Of a DNA stretch of 64,000 bases, positions 42,096 through 50,006 are shown one piece after another. The notes beneath the pieces are model-generated. The model ran no database searches, was not told where the DNA came from, and saw nothing but the letters and a program-made list of their open reading frames with translations. The position numbers and the translations under genes were made by a program. The number at the start of each line of letters is the position of its first letter. Position 1 is the stretch's first letter. This DNA is from Chloroflexota bacterium (lineage in GTDB: Bacteria > Chloroflexota > Anaerolineae > Anaerolineales > Villigracilaceae): assembly GCA_016223135.1 (NCBI GenBank), contig JACRPQ010000006.1:124001-188000 (forward strand), given 5' to 3'.

Positions 42096-43823
42096 TTACG
42101 TCTTGCTTTTCATGCGCGCCAGAATGTTCATCAATTTTTCATTGCCGCCCGCCGCCGGTCTCCAGTCCACGTGAACCACTTCGGCTTTTTGCGCGGCAAG
42201 GCTCTCGGTAAACGACTCCAGCCCGACGTTGATCGCCGCCAGCGGCTCTTTGATGGCGGAAAGATTTACCTCCGCAAATGCGGACGGCGCGGTCTGACCT
42301 GCGGGATTCAACGCCCGCAGCAAACGACCGACGCGGCGCGCCGCGGCGTCATTGCTCGTCTCGACGACCGCGCCCGCTTCTTTCAACGCCCGAACCTGCT
42401 CCGCCATATTTTGCGGATCCTCATCCGTGCCTGAGACGACCGCCACCACCTCCAGGTGACGTCCGTTCTCCGCAGCGGCGCGGCGGGCTTTGGCAATGGC
42501 AGGCGCCAGTTCGCCGGCGGGGTCGGGATGCGCGCCATAGCCGAGGACCACATCCAGCAGGATGACCGCCACTTCAGGGTCAGCCGCTTCCTTTTCCAGG
42601 CGGCGGATGCGCAGGTCGTTGTCCATCATCGGGTGCAGCCGCCCGACGGTGAATTCGTCTTCGCCCAAATCAATCAGCGTGTGTTCCTGGCTGGTCAGGG
42701 AATCTTTCAGGCGCAGTTCCTTGTTCAGCGGCGCGTTGGAATAGACGGCGGGCAGATATTCGCGCAAAACCAGTTGCGCCTCGTATGCCAGCGTGCCTCC
42801 CGAAAACAACCCGCGCAGGTAACGCTGTCCCGGCGCAAACAGGGCGGGGTTGAAATCGTCTTCTTTCTGCGCGGTCGTTTTGGAAAGATGAACGGCGAGT
42901 TCGGCGGCTTCGTCGAAGGTCGTCACGAAGGTGACGTTGTCAACTCTGCGCATGGCGGTGGCGTACCCGATGAAATCCACAACGACGGGCTTTCCCGTCC
43001 GGCGCGCGGCTTCGATGAGTTCACCCGCCACTTTGGGCGAGGGCGGCTTGGAGACAAGCACAATGACGCGGGTGTCGGGGTCGCGGCGCAGCAAGTCCAA
43101 TGCCTGGCGCGCCGTGATGGCATTGACCGCCTCGGAGAGGTCGCGTCCGCCGGTGCCGAGCGCGTGGGTGACGCCGCCGCCCATCTGGTGGATGCGAACC
43201 GTCACCTGCTGGAGTCCCGTCCCCGAAGCGGCGACCAAGCCAATCGGTCCGCGCCGAACCTTGTTGGCAAATCCCAAGCCAACACCGTTGACGATGGCGG
43301 TGCCGCAGTCGGGTCCCATCACCAGCAAGCCTTTTTGCGCGGCTTCCTGTTTCAATGAAATTTCATCCTCGAGGGGAACGTTGTCGCTGTAAAGGAAGAC
43401 GTGCTTGTTCATGCCGAGCGCTTCGCGGGTCACGCCGGCGGCGTAACGCCCGGGGACGGAGACGAGCACCCATCCCGCCGAGGGCAGGCGCTTGGCGGCG
43501 GATTCCATGCTCTGCGAGCGGTACTCCTGCGAGACGCCCTCGCTGCGCCGCGCCGCGATGAGTTCGTCCACTCTTTGCAGAGCCATTTGCGCCGCCGCTT
43601 CGCTCTCGCCTTTGACGACGATCGCCAAGTCGTTGACGCCCGCCCCTTTGATTTCATCCGCCAGCAAGCCGGCTTGCGCCAGCAGGTCCTTGTTGGCTTC
43701 GGTTGCCATCACCACCCCGGCGTCCAGCACGCCGGGCAGGTCTGCCAGCGAGCGCTGCAATTTCATCAGCACGGCAGAATCGTAATAAACACCAGAACGA
43801 ATTTCAGATTTGATGAAGGTCAT
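42096..43823 (-). CDS. fdrA: FdrA family protein (succinyl-CoA synthetase-like)
   Basis: 575 aa. The N-terminal part (IKSEIRSGVYYDSAVLMKLQ, MATEANKDLLAQAGL) and the central LLVMGPDCGTAIVNGVGLGF, GLVAASGTGLQQVTVRIHQM and THALGTGGRDLSEAV are diagnostic for FdrA. The second half resembles a CoA-ligase-type domain (VILLDVVLGYGAHPDPAGEL). FdrA is one of the E. coli oxamate carbamoyltransferase subunits. Start choice is uncertain: ATG 43823 (MTFIKSE) fits homologues best, while 43835 and 43883 are in frame, none with a good ribosome site. A palindrome (ACGCAgaaagTGCGT) lies just upstream. Works with DUF1116 and DUF2877 of the same block. Confidence 0.93.
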   Translation of the reverse strand: MTFIKSEIRSGVYYDSAVLMKLQRSLADLPGVLDAGVVMATEANKDLLAQAGLLADEIKGAGVNDLAIVVKGESEAAAQMALQRVDELIAARRSEGVSQEYRSQSMESAAKRLPSAGWVLVSVPGRYAAGVTREALGMNKHVFLYSDNVPLEDEISLKQEAAQKGLLVMGPDCGTAIVNGVGLGFANKVRRGPIGLVAASGTGLQQVTVRIHQMGGGVTHALGTGGRDLSEAVNAITARQALDLLRRDPDTRVIVLVSKPPSPKVAGELIEAARRTGKPVVVDFIGYATAMRRVDNVTFVTTFDEAAELAVHLSKTTAQKEDDFNPALFAPGQRYLRGLFSGGTLAYEAQLVLREYLPAVYSNAPLNKELRLKDSLTSQEHTLIDLGEDEFTVGRLHPMMDNDLRIRRLEKEAADPEVAVILLDVVLGYGAHPDPAGELAPAIAKARRAAAENGRHLEVVAVVSGTDEDPQNMAEQVRALKEAGAVVETSNDAAARRVGRLLRALNPAGQTAPSAFAEVNLSAIKEPLAAINVGLESFTESLAAQKAEVVHVDWRPAAGGNEKLMNILARMKSKT

Positions 43824-43930
43824 AATGGAATCCATTCCTGCAGCAGTGCGCCGCACTACACGGTTGATATTTACTTTGACCATGAAAGCGCTACGCACTT
43901 TCTGCGTAACATCTATAAGGGGTTATTCTG

Positions 43931-45139
43931 CTAAATTGCTTTTTGGGCTTTCAACGATTCGATTTCTTCGGGGGCATAACCGAGCAAAGCAGAAAGCACT
44001 TCTTCGGTGTGCTGTCCCAGCGCCGGCGGAGGAGCGTGGATTTCGGCGGGCGTTTCCGAAAGTTTATAGGGAAAGCCCGTCAGTTTGACCGCGCCCGCTG
44101 TCGGATGTTCCGTTTCGAGTATCATGTCCCGCGCCTGCGTTTGTGGGTGGGCGAACGCTTGCGGGATGGAGTTGATGGGTCCGCAGGGCAGACCTGCTTT
44201 GGCAATATCCGCCAGCCATTCGTCCACGCAGCGCTGGGAAAAGATTTTGTTGAGTTCCTCCACAAGGACTTCGCGGTGGGCAACCCGCGCCCCGTTGGTG
44301 GCGAAGCGGGGGTCGGCTTTTAATTCCGGGTGATTGAGAAGATTGCACAGGGTATCCCATTGGCGCTCGTTGGCAACTCCCAAAATGAACCAGCCGTCGC
44401 GCGCGGTGAACGCTTCGTATGGCGCAAGGTTGGGATGCGCGTTGCCGAGTCGGCGGGGCGGGTTGCCTCCCACCAGATAGTTGGAGGCGACGTTGGTCAG
44501 CAGAGCCAGGTGCGAATCGAAGAGGGAAATATCCACCAACTGCCCTTCGCCGGTCAGGTCGCGGGCGCGCAGTGCGGCGAGGATGGCGGTGGCGGCAAAC
44601 ATGCCGGCGGTGATGTCAATGATGGGAATGCCGACGCGTGAGGGAGGTCCCTCCACGGGACCGGTGATGCTCATCATCCCGCCTTCCGCTTGGAGAATGG
44701 CGTCGTAGCCGGGGCGCTCGGCGTAAGGTCCCGTGCGACCGTAGCCGCTGATGGAGCAGTAAATCAATGTGGGATACAGACGATGCAAATCGTTGTACCC
44801 AAGCCCAAGTTTATCCAAATCGCCCGTGCGATAGTTCTCAACCAGCACATCTGAGATGCCCGCCAGCCGGCGGACGATCTCCTGCCCTTCGGCGCTTTGG
44901 ATGTTGACGGTGATGCTGCGCTTGTTGCGGTTGGCGGCGATGAAATACGCCGATTCGCCCGGATACGGACCGTAGGGCTTGCCGACAAACGGCGGACCCC
45001 AGCCGCGGCTTTCGTCGCCGCTGATGGGACGCTCAACTTTAATTACATCCGCGCCCAAGTCCCCCAGCATCATGGTGCAGTAGGGACCAGCAAGGGCGCG
45101 GGTGATGTCTAAAATTCGAATGTTATGAAGGGGACGCAT
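43931..45139 (-). CDS. CaiB/BaiF family (class III) CoA transferase
   Basis: 402 aa. GPYCTMMLGDLGADVIKVER and SITVNIQSAEGQEIVRRLAG are conserved; the catalytic Asp is in ERPGYDAILQAEGGMMSITG. HPNLAPYEAFTARDGWFILG and CVDEWLADIAKAGLPCGPIN complete the interlocked dimer fold. Class III enzymes swap CoA between carboxylic acids such as oxalate, formate, succinate or carnitine. Because oxalyl/oxamyl compounds are handled by FdrA-type systems, oxalyl-CoA chemistry is a tempting but unproven link. First gene of the block, behind a promoter at 45170-45197. AAGAGA serves as a weak ribosome site. Confidence 0.93.
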   Translation of the reverse strand: MRPLHNIRILDITRALAGPYCTMMLGDLGADVIKVERPISGDESRGWGPPFVGKPYGPYPGESAYFIAANRNKRSITVNIQSAEGQEIVRRLAGISDVLVENYRTGDLDKLGLGYNDLHRLYPTLIYCSISGYGRTGPYAERPGYDAILQAEGGMMSITGPVEGPPSRVGIPIIDITAGMFAATAILAALRARDLTGEGQLVDISLFDSHLALLTNVASNYLVGGNPPRRLGNAHPNLAPYEAFTARDGWFILGVANERQWDTLCNLLNHPELKADPRFATNGARVAHREVLVEELNKIFSQRCVDEWLADIAKAGLPCGPINSIPQAFAHPQTQARDMILETEHPTAGAVKLTGFPYKLSETPAEIHAPPPALGQHTEEVLSALLGYAPEEIESLKAQKAI

Positions 45140-45169
45140 GGTCTCTTTTCGCAGCGATTGGATGGGTTG

Positions 45170-45197
45170 ATTATATACAATTCAGTCAGTTCCGCAA
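45170..45197 (-). promoter_or_regulatory. Sigma70-like promoter for the 22-kb catabolic block
   Basis: On the minus strand: -35 TTGCGG (45192-45197), 16-bp spacer, -10 TATAAT (45170-45175), about 30 bp upstream of the CoA transferase start. No obvious operator palindrome overlaps it. Confidence 0.65.
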
Positions 45198-45582
45198 GTA
45201 TATTTGTCTGTTCAATCGCAATGGGAGGGAAAGCAAACTTTTAGGGTTTTGTGTACGGTAAAGAATTCTCAAAAACCTTTGCCGCAAAGCATGGGTATAA
45301 TCTTCAGAAAGTTGCCAGGGGGTTGAAAATTGTAGAACGCTCAGTTGTGTATTTTGCACTCTTTGCGCAGCACACAAAAGCGGCGGCAGAGACCGCCGAG
45401 TATGCGCTTGGAAAATTTTTGTTTGCAACAGAGCTAGCGACCCGACAGTTTCAAATGGGACGCTGAAAAACGCAGATAAACGCAGAAAAAAAAACTAACT
45501 CAGCGTAAATCAGCGTTCATCTGCGTCCCAAAACAAAAGTGTCGGGTTAGTAACAGAGTAATTTTAGAACAGCGAGGCAGAG
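45198..45582. other. Repeat-filled gap between divergent genes
   Basis: Contains a half copy of MITE family 1 (about 45232-45272: gggaaagcaaacttttaggg ... gtgtacggtaaagaa). A block near 45350-45433 is related to 2640-2700, and a family 2 element lies at 45434-45551. No gene. The promoter of xdhC must be in or beside these elements. Confidence 0.65.
45427..45558. mobile_element. MITE-like family 2, copy A, with 7-bp target duplication
   Basis: Element 45434-45551, flanked by AACAGAG (45427-45433 and 45552-45558). Ends ACCCGACAGTTTcaaaTGGGACGC and, reversed, ACCCGACACTTTtgttTTGGGACGC are inverted repeats. Against the 55.7-kb copy both arms carry the same T-to-C change (CCCGACA instead of CCTGACA), so pairing is kept. 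Confidence 0.85.
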
Positions 45583-46659
45583 ATGCGAGAAGTGATTGCA
45601 GAAATCGAGACCTGGCGCAAGGCAGGCAAACAAATTGCCCTGGCAATGAATGTCCGAAAAGACGGCACGTCGCTGCGTCCGCTGGGCGCCAAAATGGCAA
45701 TGACCAGCAATATGGAAATTGCCGGCTCGCTGACGGGCGGCTGTATCGAAGGGGCGGTGTATGAGGAGGCGCAGGTTGTCATGCGGGAGGGGACGCCGAG
45801 GTTGATTCGTTATGGCGTGCCAGACGATGAACGTCCCTGGGAAATCGGTCTGAGCTGCGGCAGTTCGCTGGAAGTGTTCATTGAATCGTTGGATTCGCCC
45901 GCATGGCGCGCGCTGTATCCGCCGCTGAAAGCCTGCCTCGATGAAAATCAACTGGCGGCAGTGGTGACAGTCATTGCGGGAGAGGGGCTGGGGAATAAAC
46001 TTCTCGTCCGCTCGGATGGGCGCAGGCTGGGGAGTCTCGGGTCGGCAGCGCTGGATGCGGATGCGGCGGCTTGGGCGCAGGAACAGATGAGGGTTCAAGA
46101 ATCAGGCTGGAGGGAGTTCGAGGCGCGGCAGGTCTTTGTGGATGTCCTGCCGCCGCCGGCGCGTCTGATCATCATTGGGGCAGTGCATATTGCCATCCCG
46201 TTGGTGACGCTGGCAAAGACGCTCGGCTTCCGCACGATTGTGGTGGATCCGCGCACAGCCTTCGCCACACGCGAACGTTTTCCTCATGCGGACGAATTGC
46301 TTGTTGAGTGGACCTCTGATGCGCTGAAGAGGCTGCGCCTCGACGAGAATACGTATGTCGCCGCGCTCAGCCATGATGAAAAGTTGGATAATCCTGCCTT
46401 GCAGGTTGCGCTTTCGAGTCCCGCGCGTTATGTGGGGGTGTTGGGCGCGCGCAAGAACATCAGCAAACGGCTGGATGCGCTGCGCGAAATGGGCGTGACG
46501 GAGGAGCAGTTATCCCGTTTGCAGGCGCCGATTGGGCTGCGGCTTGGGGCAGTGGACGCGGAGGAAATTGCGTTGTCCATTCTGGCGGCGATGGTGGCGG
46601 CAAAGCATGGAGCGCTGGAAGCGAATGAACGTCGGCACCTCTTGCAGGCACACCAATAA
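45583..46659 (+). CDS. xdhC: XdhC/CoxF family molybdenum hydroxylase maturation protein
   Basis: 358 aa. N-terminal XdhC domain: RKDGTSLRPLGAKMAMTSNM, AGSLTGGCIEGAVYEEAQ, EIGLSCGSSLEVFIE, with the two conserved cysteines in GGCIE and LSCGS. C-terminal Rossmann domain: RLIIIGAVHIAIPLVTLA, AALSHDEKLDNPALQVAL, YVGVLGARKNISKRLDAL. XdhC binds and sulfurates the molybdenum cofactor and inserts it into the large subunit, here presumably the one at 32436-34793. It is transcribed divergently from the catabolic block. GAGGCAGAG precedes the ATG. Confidence 0.93.
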   Translation: MREVIAEIETWRKAGKQIALAMNVRKDGTSLRPLGAKMAMTSNMEIAGSLTGGCIEGAVYEEAQVVMREGTPRLIRYGVPDDERPWEIGLSCGSSLEVFIESLDSPAWRALYPPLKACLDENQLAAVVTVIAGEGLGNKLLVRSDGRRLGSLGSAALDADAAAWAQEQMRVQESGWREFEARQVFVDVLPPPARLIIIGAVHIAIPLVTLAKTLGFRTIVVDPRTAFATRERFPHADELLVEWTSDALKRLRLDENTYVAALSHDEKLDNPALQVALSSPARYVGVLGARKNISKRLDALREMGVTEEQLSRLQAPIGLRLGAVDAEEIALSILAAMVAAKHGALEANERRHLLQAHQ

Positions 46660-46669
46660 AAAGTGTCCC

Positions 46670-46699
46670 TTGACGAATTCTCGTGAGCGGGAGTATAGT
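46670..46699 (+). promoter_or_regulatory. Sigma70-like promoter of the NitT/Tau-type transporter
   Basis: -35 TTGACG (46670-46675), 18-bp spacer, -10 TATAGT (46694-46699). Transcription should begin near 46706, giving a leader of about 150 nt before the permease start. Confidence 0.75.
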
Positions 46700-46705
46700 C
46701 GCGCA

Positions 46706-46858
46706 GATTATGGATAGCTTGCCTTCGCTTGATTCTGATCATAGTACCACTCGAAATCCCAGCCAGTTGGAAACGCTGGGGCGGGTTTAACCTGCCTCGA
46801 ACAGGTCGCCTCCTGCCCTGTGCCCCAACTGGCGCAGGGCATTTTATTTGGAGGTGAC
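46706..46858 (+). promoter_or_regulatory. Structured leader with terminator/antiterminator switch, candidate riboswitch
   Basis: An 11-bp terminator hairpin (TGCCCTGTGCC 46814-46824, loop CCAACT, GGCGCAGGGCA 46831-46841) is followed by TTTTATTT. Its loop and right arm CCAACTGGC (46825-46833) are exactly complementary to GCCAGTTGG (46762-46770), an antiterminator. GCCAGTTGG in turn overlaps a 6-bp hairpin CCCAGC / GCTGGG (46758-46763, 46775-46780). Between them is GGCGGG-tttaa-CCTGCC. The ribosome site GGAGGTGA lies right after the T tract. I could not match it to TPP, guanidine, SAM, fluoride, Mn or T-box consensus. Confidence 0.7.
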
Positions 46859-48583
46859 ATGGGATTGCTTCAAAACACAGCAGTACCGCCCAAAGAACGC
46901 CTCGAGCGTTCCTTCACAGGGGGCGACGCAATCGTCATCCTTTTTCTTGTCGCGCTGCTTTATGGAGGCGCGCGGCTCGCGTTTGACGCGCCCGCTTTCA
47001 TTGAAGGTCCGCAGATTTCGCTGAAACCGTCCACTCTGCCGTGGTACACCCTGCTTTCGGTGGGACGGATGCTGGCGGCATACCTCCTCTCGCTATTATT
47101 CACGCTCACCTATGGACGGATGGCGGCATACAATCGCCGCGCCGAATCCATCCTCATGCCTTTGCTGGATGTCTTGCAGAGCGTGCCGATTCTTTCCTTC
47201 CTGCCTGTCGTCCTGCTGGGCTTGAACGCCATCCTGCCCCAGCGGACTGCCGCCGAACTGGCGTCCATTGTGTTGATCTTTACCAGTCAGGCATGGAACA
47301 TGACCTTCGGCTGGTATCAATCGCTCACCACAATTCCAAAAGAATTGCGCGAGGCAAGTTCAATCTTCCGCCTGAATGCCTGGCTGCGTTTCAAGCGGCT
47401 GGAACTGCCCTTCGCCATGATCGGGCTGATTTGGAACAGCATCATGTCATGGGCAGGCGGCTGGTTTTTCCTCATGGCGGCGGAGATTTTCACAGTGGGA
47501 TCGAAGGACTTTCGCCTGCCCGGTTTAGGCGCGTATCTTCACGAAGCCGCCAACCAGGGCGACTTTCGCGCAATCGCCTTCGGCTTGATTGCTTTGATAC
47601 TCACCATCGTCGCCCTCGATCAGTTTCTATGGCGTCCGCTCCTGGTTTGGGCAGACCGCTTCAAAGTGGAAATGACGGAGAGCGATGAACCGCCAACCTC
47701 GTGGTTTTATGATCTGATTCACACATCCCGCTTGTTCCTATGGTTTGGTTCGCTATTCGAAAAGGCAAATGAAGGATTCGATCACTGGATGATTCGCCGC
47801 GCGCCGATGAAAGCGGACTGGGACGAAAACGGCTCGAAACTGAACTGGAGGTTGGTCGCCTTCTATTTGCTGATCGGCGCCTTTATCATCTACGGCGGCT
47901 ATCGCGCCGTAGAGATGCTGCTCTCCGTCCCCCTGCCGCAATGGGGTCAGATTGGGACGGGCGTGCTGGCTACAGCCCTGCGCGTGGGCGTCTCGCTGGT
48001 CATCGCGCTATTGTGGACCATCCCCGTCGGCGTCGCCATCGGAACGAATCGCCGCGTCGCCACAGTCCTCCAGCCCATTGTTCAGGTCACTGCCGCGGTG
48101 CCAGCAACCGCCATTTTCCCCATCCTTCTGCTCTTCTTCATCAACATGACAGGCGGATTGAACCTCGCCGCCATCTTCCTGATGCTGATGGGCACGCAGT
48201 GGTATCTGCTCTTCAACGTCATTGCGGGCGCAAGCGCCATTCCGCAGGATTTGAAGCACACGTCTTCTTTACTGGGTCTTTCGCGCTGGGAACGGTGGCG
48301 CACGCTGATCCTGCCCGCGTTATTTCCATACATCATCACGGGTTCCATCACCGCCAGCGGCGGCGCATGGAACGCCAGCATCGTGGCAGAGTATGTTCAC
48401 TTCGGCGGGCAGACGTTGTTTGCCACAGGCATCGGCTCGCTGATCTCGCAAGCAACCGCCCATGGCGATTACCCTTTGCTGCTTGCCTCCACGCTGAGCA
48501 TGATTTTGGCAGTCGTCCTTGCCAATCGTCTGTTCTGGCGGCGGCTGTATCGGATCGCCGAAGAAAAATATCGTCTGGAATAA
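46859..48583 (+). CDS. NitT/Tau-type ABC transporter, double permease
   Basis: 574 aa with two binding-protein-dependent permease domains in one chain, about 20-260 and 330-574. Coupling-loop motifs appear twice: TIPKELREASSIFRLNAWLR in the first and ASAIPQDLKHTSSLLGLSRW in the second. GGAGGTGAC before ATG 46859 sets the start. Unlike the common single-domain SsuC/TauC proteins, the fused form pairs with ATPases bearing an AAA-associated C-terminus, as here. No substrate-binding protein gene is visible in the window. Substrate unknown; nitrate, sulfonates, thiamine precursors or metals are transported by relatives. Confidence 0.88.
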   Translation: MGLLQNTAVPPKERLERSFTGGDAIVILFLVALLYGGARLAFDAPAFIEGPQISLKPSTLPWYTLLSVGRMLAAYLLSLLFTLTYGRMAAYNRRAESILMPLLDVLQSVPILSFLPVVLLGLNAILPQRTAAELASIVLIFTSQAWNMTFGWYQSLTTIPKELREASSIFRLNAWLRFKRLELPFAMIGLIWNSIMSWAGGWFFLMAAEIFTVGSKDFRLPGLGAYLHEAANQGDFRAIAFGLIALILTIVALDQFLWRPLLVWADRFKVEMTESDEPPTSWFYDLIHTSRLFLWFGSLFEKANEGFDHWMIRRAPMKADWDENGSKLNWRLVAFYLLIGAFIIYGGYRAVEMLLSVPLPQWGQIGTGVLATALRVGVSLVIALLWTIPVGVAIGTNRRVATVLQPIVQVTAAVPATAIFPILLLFFINMTGGLNLAAIFLMLMGTQWYLLFNVIAGASAIPQDLKHTSSLLGLSRWERWRTLILPALFPYIITGSITASGGAWNASIVAEYVHFGGQTLFATGIGSLISQATAHGDYPLLLASTLSMILAVVLANRLFWRRLYRIAEEKYRLE

Positions 48584-48674: not shown

Positions 48675-50006
48675 ATGGCAACCAATATCGCCAACGCTGC
48701 TTTGCTCAAACTGCGTCACGTCCAGCAGGTTTATACCAACGGACAGCGCCGTTTCATCGCCGTGCAGGATGTCAATCTGACCATCTCCGAGGGTGAATTC
48801 GTCGCTTTACTCGGACCTTCCGGCTGCGGTAAAAGCACCCTCCTGCGGATTATCACCGGGCTTCAGAAACCGTCCGAAGGAAAAGTGCTATATCGCGACC
48901 AGCCGCTGCGCGGGGTCAATCCACATGCAACCATCGTTTTCCAGACCTTTGCCCTGTTCCCCTGGCTGACGGTGTTTGAGAATGTGGACTTGGCGCTGAA
49001 AGCGCGCGGGCTCCCGGCGAACATCCGCACGCCTCGCGCCCTTGACTTGATTGACCGCGTCGGCTTGGACGGCTTCGAGACCGCCTACCCGCGAGAACTT
49101 TCCGGCGGGATGCGCCAGAAAGTGGGTTTTGCGCGCGCCATGGCGGTGGAGCCCGAACTGCTCTGCCTCGACGAACCGTTCTCCGCGCTGGATGTGCTTT
49201 CCGCCGAATCCCTGCGCGGCGAGCTGCTGGAACTGTGGACAAGCGGCAGCATTCCCACCAAAGCGATTCTCATGGTGAGCCACAACATCGAAGAAGCGGT
49301 CTTCATGGCAGATCGCATCGTCGTCATGGACAAAGAACCGGGGCGCATCATCGCAGAAGTGAAGGTGGCATTGCCGCATCCGCGCCAGCGCAAATCGGAG
49401 GAGTTTCAAAAAATGGTGGATGAAGTCTATGCCATGCTGGCTGGTCAAACGCAGCCCGAAGCCGTGGAATTGGGGAGCGCGCCCGGTGAGCAGGGACACA
49501 CCCGCGCCTTGCCCAAGATCGCCATCTCCGATCTGGCTGGCTTGCTCGAATATCTCTCCGAACTCCCCTCCAACAGGCAGGACATCTACCGCCTGCCTGA
49601 AGAACTGAACGTTGACCCCAACCACATCTTCAGCCTGACCGAAGCGGCGGAGATTTTGGGCTTTGCTTACGTTGAAAAAGGCGACATCATCCTGACCTCC
49701 CTCGGCGAGACCTTTGCCGAAGCCAGCATTCAGGCGCGCAAGGAAATCTTCGCCACCCGCATCCGCCGCCTGCCGCTCTTCCGCTGGCTGACAACGCTGT
49801 TATCGCGCGCCGAAAATCACGCGCTCGATTGGGACGTGATCCACACCGCGCTGGAACTGGAATTTCCCAAAGATGAAGCCGAGAAACAGCTCGACACTCT
49901 CATCAACTGGGGACGCTATGCCGAATTACTGTCGTATAACGACGATAAAGCGCTGGTCTATCTCGAAACGCCGCCCCAGCCTGCGACGCCATCCGGCAGG
50001 CAATAG
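48675..50006 (+). CDS. NitT/Tau-type ABC transporter ATPase with AAA-associated C-terminal domain
   Basis: 443 aa. ABC domain (about 1-265): Walker A LLGPSGCGKSTLLRIITGLQ, signature ELSGGMRQKVGFARAM, Walker B LLCLDEPFSALDVLS, switch His in MVSHNIEEAVFMADR. The C-terminal 160 residues (LAGLLEYLSELPSNRQDIYR, LTEAAEILGFAYVEKGDIIL, LTSLGETFAEASIQARKEIF) form the helical AAA-associated domain, probably a regulatory winged-helix-like unit. It is the partner of the double permease upstream. No ribosome site of strength is seen (GGAGTAATTTTT is acceptable). Confidence 0.92.
   Translation: MATNIANAALLKLRHVQQVYTNGQRRFIAVQDVNLTISEGEFVALLGPSGCGKSTLLRIITGLQKPSEGKVLYRDQPLRGVNPHATIVFQTFALFPWLTVFENVDLALKARGLPANIRTPRALDLIDRVGLDGFETAYPRELSGGMRQKVGFARAMAVEPELLCLDEPFSALDVLSAESLRGELLELWTSGSIPTKAILMVSHNIEEAVFMADRIVVMDKEPGRIIAEVKVALPHPRQRKSEEFQKMVDEVYAMLAGQTQPEAVELGSAPGEQGHTRALPKIAISDLAGLLEYLSELPSNRQDIYRLPEELNVDPNHIFSLTEAAEILGFAYVEKGDIILTSLGETFAEASIQARKEIFATRIRRLPLFRWLTTLLSRAENHALDWDVIHTALELEFPKDEAEKQLDTLINWGRYAELLSYNDDKALVYLETPPQPATPSGRQ

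Follow-up and report, generated by a model that had tools for sequence, protein, structure and literature searches.

Organization of the leader and the transporter genes

The window (the whole stretch of 64,000 nucleotides that was analysed, from a Chloroflexota bacterium) carries a gene for a double-length ABC permease and a gene for an ABC ATPase, and the permease gene is preceded by a promoter, a short upstream ORF and several alternative RNA hairpins (Table 1). Among proteins of solved structure, the permease is closest to CmpB and NrtB, which transport bicarbonate and nitrate. Anions are the usual cargo of the NitT-like fold, which normally works with a binding protein; no binding-protein gene was evident beside the permease and ATPase genes of the window. 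No paper on the function of PF09821 was found in the literature searched. Upstream of the leader (42096-46659) are genes for an FdrA-like CoA ligase and a class III CoA transferase, both on the minus strand, and for XdhC, which have no visible link to Mg2+.

Table 1. Features of the leader and of the genes that follow it, in window coordinates.
Feature	Position	Strand	Basis
sigma70-type promoter, -35 TTGACG, 18-bp spacer, -10 TATAGT	46670..46699	+	scan; same type and same place in orthologs
upstream ORF, leader peptide MDSLPSLDSDHSTTRNPSQLETLGRV	46710..46790	+	sequence; frame and acidic motif conserved across orthologs
Asp8-Ser9-Asp10 codons, putative ribosome-destabilising acidic motif	46731..46739	+	DxD/DPD/EPD recurrent in orthologous leader ORFs
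CCCAGC/GCTGGG hairpin able to hold R2 (arms 46758-46763 and 46775-46780)	46758..46780	+	sequence; weak fold; variable in relatives
R2, antiterminator 5' arm GCCAGTTGG, within the upstream ORF	46762..46770	+	covarying pairing with R3
middle hairpin GGCGGGT-TTA-ACCTGCC	46780..46796	+	fold only
anti-Shine-Dalgarno arm GTCGCCTCC	46805..46813	+	covarying pairing with 46850-46858
intrinsic-terminator-like hairpin (46814-46841; 11 bp, 6-nt loop) with U-rich tail TTTTATTT	46814..46849	+	scan; fold
R3, antiterminator 3' arm CCAACTGGC, in terminator loop and 3' arm	46825..46833	+	covariation; 9-mer count
Shine-Dalgarno region GGAGGTGAC of the permease gene	46850..46858	+	sequence; covarying helix
double-length ABC permease, NitT/NrtB/CmpB-like; candidate Mg2+ importer	46859..48583	+	PF00528, two stretches
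ABC ATPase with C-terminal AAA-associated domain	48675..50006	+	PF00005 and PF09821

An earlier, sequence-only reading of the locus had described an 11-bp terminator with the ribosome site just past its T tract, and both were recovered, the hairpin by a scan and the Shine-Dalgarno region at the expected place. The CCCAGC/GCTGGG hairpin of that reading is likewise present in the window, but its fold is weak and varies among relatives. Two elements had been overlooked, namely the upstream ORF and the helix formed by the Shine-Dalgarno region with the anti-Shine-Dalgarno arm. The fold of the leader was 4.5 standard deviations better than that of shuffled sequences. The leader could not be fitted to a known class before, and this still holds: no family of Rfam 15 exceeded its gathering score in a search of the window leader, sub-threshold matches at permissive thresholds look like chance, and the M-box covariance model (RF00380) gave no match.

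Conservation and covariation of the alternative helices

R2 and R3, which had been proposed to pair, are exact complements by sequence. The 9-mer GCCAGTTGG or its complement occurs at only two places in the 64 kb on either strand; at least two matches were, however, also obtained in 17 of 100 shuffles, so that the pair alone is not significant. Since the complementarity alone could be due to chance, the decision lies with the relatives. The comparison drew on 80 loci from public genomes that code for the same double permease, and on gene places throughout the class from 396 genomes.

The alternative pairings were conserved with covariation across 16 orthologous leaders, which bears out the terminator/antiterminator architecture of the sequence-only reading by the very check it had named. 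Compensatory pair types were present in all nine R2:R3 columns, with variants such as CCGGTTCG/CGAACCGG, CTGGTTCG/CGAACCAG, CGGTTGA/TCAACCG and CTAGGTGGG/CCCGCCTAG. The arms of the 16 leaders were aligned and picked by hand with the pairing in view, which biases the proportions upward; R2:R3 pairing was kept in 130 of 144 cells, and the helix between the Shine-Dalgarno region and 46805-46813, which encloses the terminator, in 123 of 135. Cognate R2 and R3 arms formed 8.12 pairs and swapped arms 5.17 (permutation p <= 5e-5, a value that is optimistic because the 16 leaders include near-identical ones). An alignment-free duplex test of R2:R3 reached p <= 0.05 in 16 of 31 leaders, with a combined p of 2e-12 over related and thus non-independent sequences. 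The Shine-Dalgarno helix showed compensatory changes in four columns, its variation being limited by the Shine-Dalgarno sequence itself. In an automatic duplex test this helix did not differ significantly from shuffles (combined p 0.097), likely because the shuffles keep the CT-rich composition and several hairpins were mis-picked. The stronger argument for pairing is that different compensatory types occur in separate clades.

It is also conceivable that the hairpin just terminates transcription of xdhC, which ends about 155 nt before it, and that the complementarity is due to chance, given that such a 9-mer pair is by itself not rare; this appears extremely unlikely, since a promoter is located between xdhC and the hairpin and the pairing covaries across orthologs that have different upstream genes.

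Some orthologs have poor U tracts. In the close relatives L005 and L006 (G007, G001) the leader is missing and the permease gene directly follows the apparent 3' end of an obg-type GTPase gene, probably under the control of another promoter. In L193 and L197 (G243, G111) the leader ORFs have EPDSP/EADS motifs, and the alternative hairpins behind them are G+C-rich, very stable and arranged differently.

The upstream ORF and its acidic motif

The upstream ORF comprises 26 codons and contains R2. In the window it has no Shine-Dalgarno sequence of its own, and its ATG lies 10 nt after the strong -10 box, which probably makes the mRNA leaderless or almost leaderless. Such an ORF next to a strong promoter was found in about 30 orthologs, with early Asp/Glu/Pro motifs that read DSD (residues 8-10 in the window peptide), DPDH, DTDH, NPD or EPD. 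Examples of the leader peptides are MDGLLSLDPDHSTARTPSQLETLRQV (L002), MGIPVSSDPDHSAMQ (L003), MDENPSDLDTDHQQTRIRTLRSS (L042), MDEIVGLDSDYHSCTLLPHDISG (L048), MTDLDPYATNLPIPVRMD (L046), MKTDDPHLTLSFFKLPVCV (L009), MTTSLDTDHRQSPTSHPAERSTCRL (L179) and MLALSSNPDVAGDADIDPPSPDDHRSLPNSLM (L083); those of the orthologs L041 (MNPHSTTLL) and L103 (MEPYQRSR) are hardly acidic.

Acidity was tested with an automatic ORF rule on one sequence per clade, using short ORFs behind promoter-like sites as controls. Of the first 17 residues, 14.7% were acidic in leader ORFs compared with 6.2% in the controls (p 1.5e-4); a stretch of three positions holding two acidic residues was present in 11 of 18 leader ORFs and in 4 of 24 controls (p 0.004). 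The codons of the acidic motif differ mostly at silent positions, for instance in LDSDYHS of L048 and L058. Over the whole ORF the differences at codon positions 1, 2 and 3 numbered 24, 28 and 39, a modest excess at the third position and thus a weak bias. The leader ORF of L032 is broken after five codons near a homopolymer, with LADSDHST still readable downstream in another frame, which reflects either a sequencing error or decay.

The architecture had previously been taken to fit a riboswitch or a protein-bound attenuator, with xanthine, guanidine and thiamine precursors among the ligands to be probed. A new metabolite or metal riboswitch would have its aptamer in the 5' part of the leader (the conserved CATAGTACC stretch), the ORF being incidental. 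The nucleotides around GATCATAGTACC are indeed conserved in the closest orthologs, and L032 retains them despite its early ORF break; outside the closest clade, however, the acidic ORF is conserved and the nucleotides are not. No conserved aptamer fold was seen 5' of R2, Rfam gave no match, and the same kind of ORF with unrelated nucleotides precedes a CorA gene (see below). A riboswitch is thus considered unlikely, and the leader is probably not an aptamer. The evidence favours a ribosome-driven attenuator based on the short acidic ORF over a riboswitch or protein-bound attenuator for the ligands named earlier.

Classical attenuation has the same architecture, and an attenuator of the trp/his type could sense an amino acid, tRNA charging or general translation speed, and the transporter would then carry an organic solute, for example a sulfonate or an amino acid; the proline codons of MgtL itself matter for its response (PMC11552253). 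Yet a run of one regulatory codon type was found in none of about 30 leader ORFs, the residues shared across clades are Asp, Glu and Pro, and the M-box and the MgtC, Nramp and MgtE partners described below indicate Mg2+. An attenuator of this type is therefore judged distinctly improbable.

Folding with and without a ribosome

When the transcript was ended at 46849 in the U tract and no ribosome was present, the minimum-energy fold of the window leader was the antiterminator (-53.6 kcal/mol), while masking of the nucleotides that a ribosome at the ORF stop would cover led to the terminator fold. In ensemble calculations with 21 leaders the mean probability of the terminator at the U tract was 0.37 with no ribosome, 0.94 with a ribosome at the stop and 0.55 with a ribosome at codon 9, and 15 of the 21 leaders switched state. 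For the window alone the probability was 0.87 without a ribosome, a value that is sensitive to the chosen ends, versus 0.06 with a ribosome stalled at codon 9. The modelled folds are consistent with control by a ribosome and do not amount to proof, as masking of any stretch containing R2 would favour the terminator. In the full window leader without a ribosome, the sequestered state was favoured at equilibrium once the Shine-Dalgarno sequence had been transcribed; because the sequestered form is the more stable one, antitermination and with it the ON state must be kinetic. Covariation and the state model together give mutually exclusive structures, one of which overlaps the ORF, as in leaders of the MgtL type.

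Association with magnesium genes in related genomes

A 63%-identical ortholog of the permease (L099) has an M-box (RF00380, 122 bits) just upstream of its gene, and its operon (L099:2489-7468) is composed of M-box, double permease, ATPase with the AAA_assoc_C domain and MgtE. In L094 (L094:1640-7456) the order is Nramp, double permease, ATPase and MgtE, with no Rfam-detectable M-box. Among the 396 genomes of the class 35 M-boxes were found. Comparison of gene places, followed by reading of the genes behind the M-boxes, placed an M-box upstream and on the same strand of the same permease, or of one of its close paralogs, in about a dozen genomes (G150, which is apparently the same genome as L099, G302, G274, G138, G380, G176, G158, G264, G244, G202, G310 and G263). 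The gene that separates the M-box from the permease gene encodes MgtC in G158 and G264 and an Nramp in G202. Other M-boxes of the class are found before genes for MgtE, P-type cation ATPases and Nramp.

In a tree of the permeases, L099 was nested among the orthologs with leader ORFs, and the other M-box permeases (about 45% identical) formed an outer clade. The nesting of L099 indicates that M-box and leader ORF appear to have swapped before the same gene. Apart from tRNA and tmRNA, Rfam searches of 59 homolog loci yielded only the M-box of L099 and a fluoride riboswitch (RF01734) in L057 of Anaerolinea thermolimosa; the latter (L057:857-919) is about 2 kb upstream of the permease gene and unrelated.

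The genome of the window has two CorA genes, and no M-box, MgtE or MgtC was found in it. A conserved acidic/Pro-Pro leader ORF with the motif [Asp/Glu]-x-[Gln/Asn]-Pro-Pro-Ser, in which the codons of shared residues vary at silent positions, precedes one of the CorA genes (G000:C3:212659) as well as the orthologs of this gene in about 20 relatives; more distant CorA relatives have leader ORFs beginning MLPDSDSDLDPDDKQG and MEVDSSLDIDP. In this lineage acidic leader ORFs are thus found before two unrelated transporters, one of which belongs to an established Mg2+ channel family. In the CorA leader (L229:1301-1437, G000:C3) alternative hairpins lie behind the ORF MFTNESASGNTESQPPSTDGVYALRHP, close to the ribosome site, and the ORF is kept by orthologs in the genus and family. 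The two P-type ATPase genes of this genome showed no obvious acidic leader ORF by eye.

The sequence-only reading had expected the signal of the leader to reveal the transporter substrate and had listed metals for probing; with the M-boxes and Mg2+ genes of the relatives, Mg2+ is now the likely signal. Because of this M-box and operon context, the transporter is best read as an Mg2+ uptake system, or at least as part of the Mg2+-starvation response. Caution over Mg2+ as the substrate is advised chiefly because the nearest solved relatives of the permease are CmpB and NrtB. Leader and transporter might answer Mg2+ starvation while the cargo is something else, such as a polyamine or an Mg2+ chelate, a view that agrees with the favoured explanation as far as regulation is concerned. 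NitT/CmpB-like permeases of known function do carry anions, and polyamines are reportedly made by Mg2+-starved Salmonella (PMC12421838). M-box genes are nearly always Mg2+ transporters, however, and the same reasoning rightly predicted NrmT (PMC4072509). Another cargo is therefore regarded as somewhat unlikely.

Proposed mechanism

Taken together, we consider it likely that the leader is an attenuator of the MgtL kind, in which a leader peptide senses low Mg2+ via the ribosome and controls a candidate Mg2+ ABC importer. The computations gave alternative structures with covariation, a conserved acidic ORF and associations with M-boxes and Mg2+ operons; from such sequence-derived data we infer translation of the ORF, the response to Mg2+, ribosome drop-off and Mg2+ transport. 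At sufficient Mg2+ the ribosome would reach the end of the 26-codon ORF, where it would cover R2 or stand just past it, so that the terminator could form, and in transcripts that read through, the Shine-Dalgarno sequence would be held by 46805-46813. At low Mg2+ the ribosome would drop off early at the acidic Asp-Ser-Asp stretch. Once R3 has been transcribed, the freed R2 would pair with it at once, the terminator would be blocked, and the permease and ATPase genes would be expressed.

The leader that fitted no class would thereby gain a likely signal, and the transporter, annotated only as nitrate/taurine-like, a likely substrate. If this is true, a phylum distant from E. coli uses the ribosome itself to gauge Mg2+, the output being set differently, by an intrinsic terminator and Shine-Dalgarno pairing, and an M-box and a leader peptide have been exchanged for one another before the same gene. 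A broader reading, for which we see the case as evenly balanced, is that the NitT/CmpB-like double permease and the AAA-associated ATPase form an unrecognised class of bacterial Mg2+ importer, placed in some genomes under an M-box and in others under an independently evolved acidic leader attenuator that also governs corA, and that ribosome-destabilising Mg2+ sensing is widespread outside enterobacteria.

Comparison with known systems

The lists of prokaryotic Mg2+ transporters that were consulted (CorA, MgtA/B, MgtE, CorB/C and NrmT) contain no ABC system (PMC9276622, PMC4072509), and the literature searched yielded no report of an M-box before such an ABC system or of MgtL-like leaders in Chloroflexi. 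NrmT, an Nramp-related protein, was recognised as a new class of Mg2+ transporter through its M-box, which provides a direct precedent for inferring a substrate from an M-box (PMC4072509). Nramp genes also adjoin the present ABC system in L094 and G202; NrmT, however, is a secondary transporter, whereas the system of the window is an ABC transporter of the NitT/CmpB type. In related genomes, orthologs of the same transporter are under the control of the M-box (ykoK, RF00380), but this is an aptamer that binds Mg2+ directly, and the window leader does not match its model.

In E. coli and Salmonella, ribosomes fall off at the acidic/proline motif of MgtL at low Mg2+ and mgtA is switched on, an effect that is abolished when both acidic residues of EPDP are replaced (PMC11282234). 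Like mgtL of mgtA, the window leader has a short acidic/proline-rich ORF and alternative RNA structures before an Mg2+ transporter gene, here a candidate one, and the proposed logic is the same, efficient translation being OFF and abortive translation ON (PMC11282234, PMC11552253). It differs from mgtL, which uses Rho-dependent termination, by its intrinsic terminator-like hairpin and Shine-Dalgarno pairing, as well as by its unrelated sequence, phylum and transporter. A related principle operates at the mgtB ribosome site in the mgtCBRU operon, where the acidic ORF mgtQ controls the release of the ribosome site of an Mg2+ transporter (PMC8092293); unlike the window leader, mgtQ is intergenic, has 8 codons and acts only at the level of translation, and ribosome occupancy of the ORF favours the open form. 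The leader ORF corL acts before corA, and its translation lowers the expression of an Mg2+ transporter gene (PMC11552253). Control by corL is Rho-dependent and its acidic and proline codons are fewer, whereas the corA leader ORFs of the lineage studied here are richer in both.
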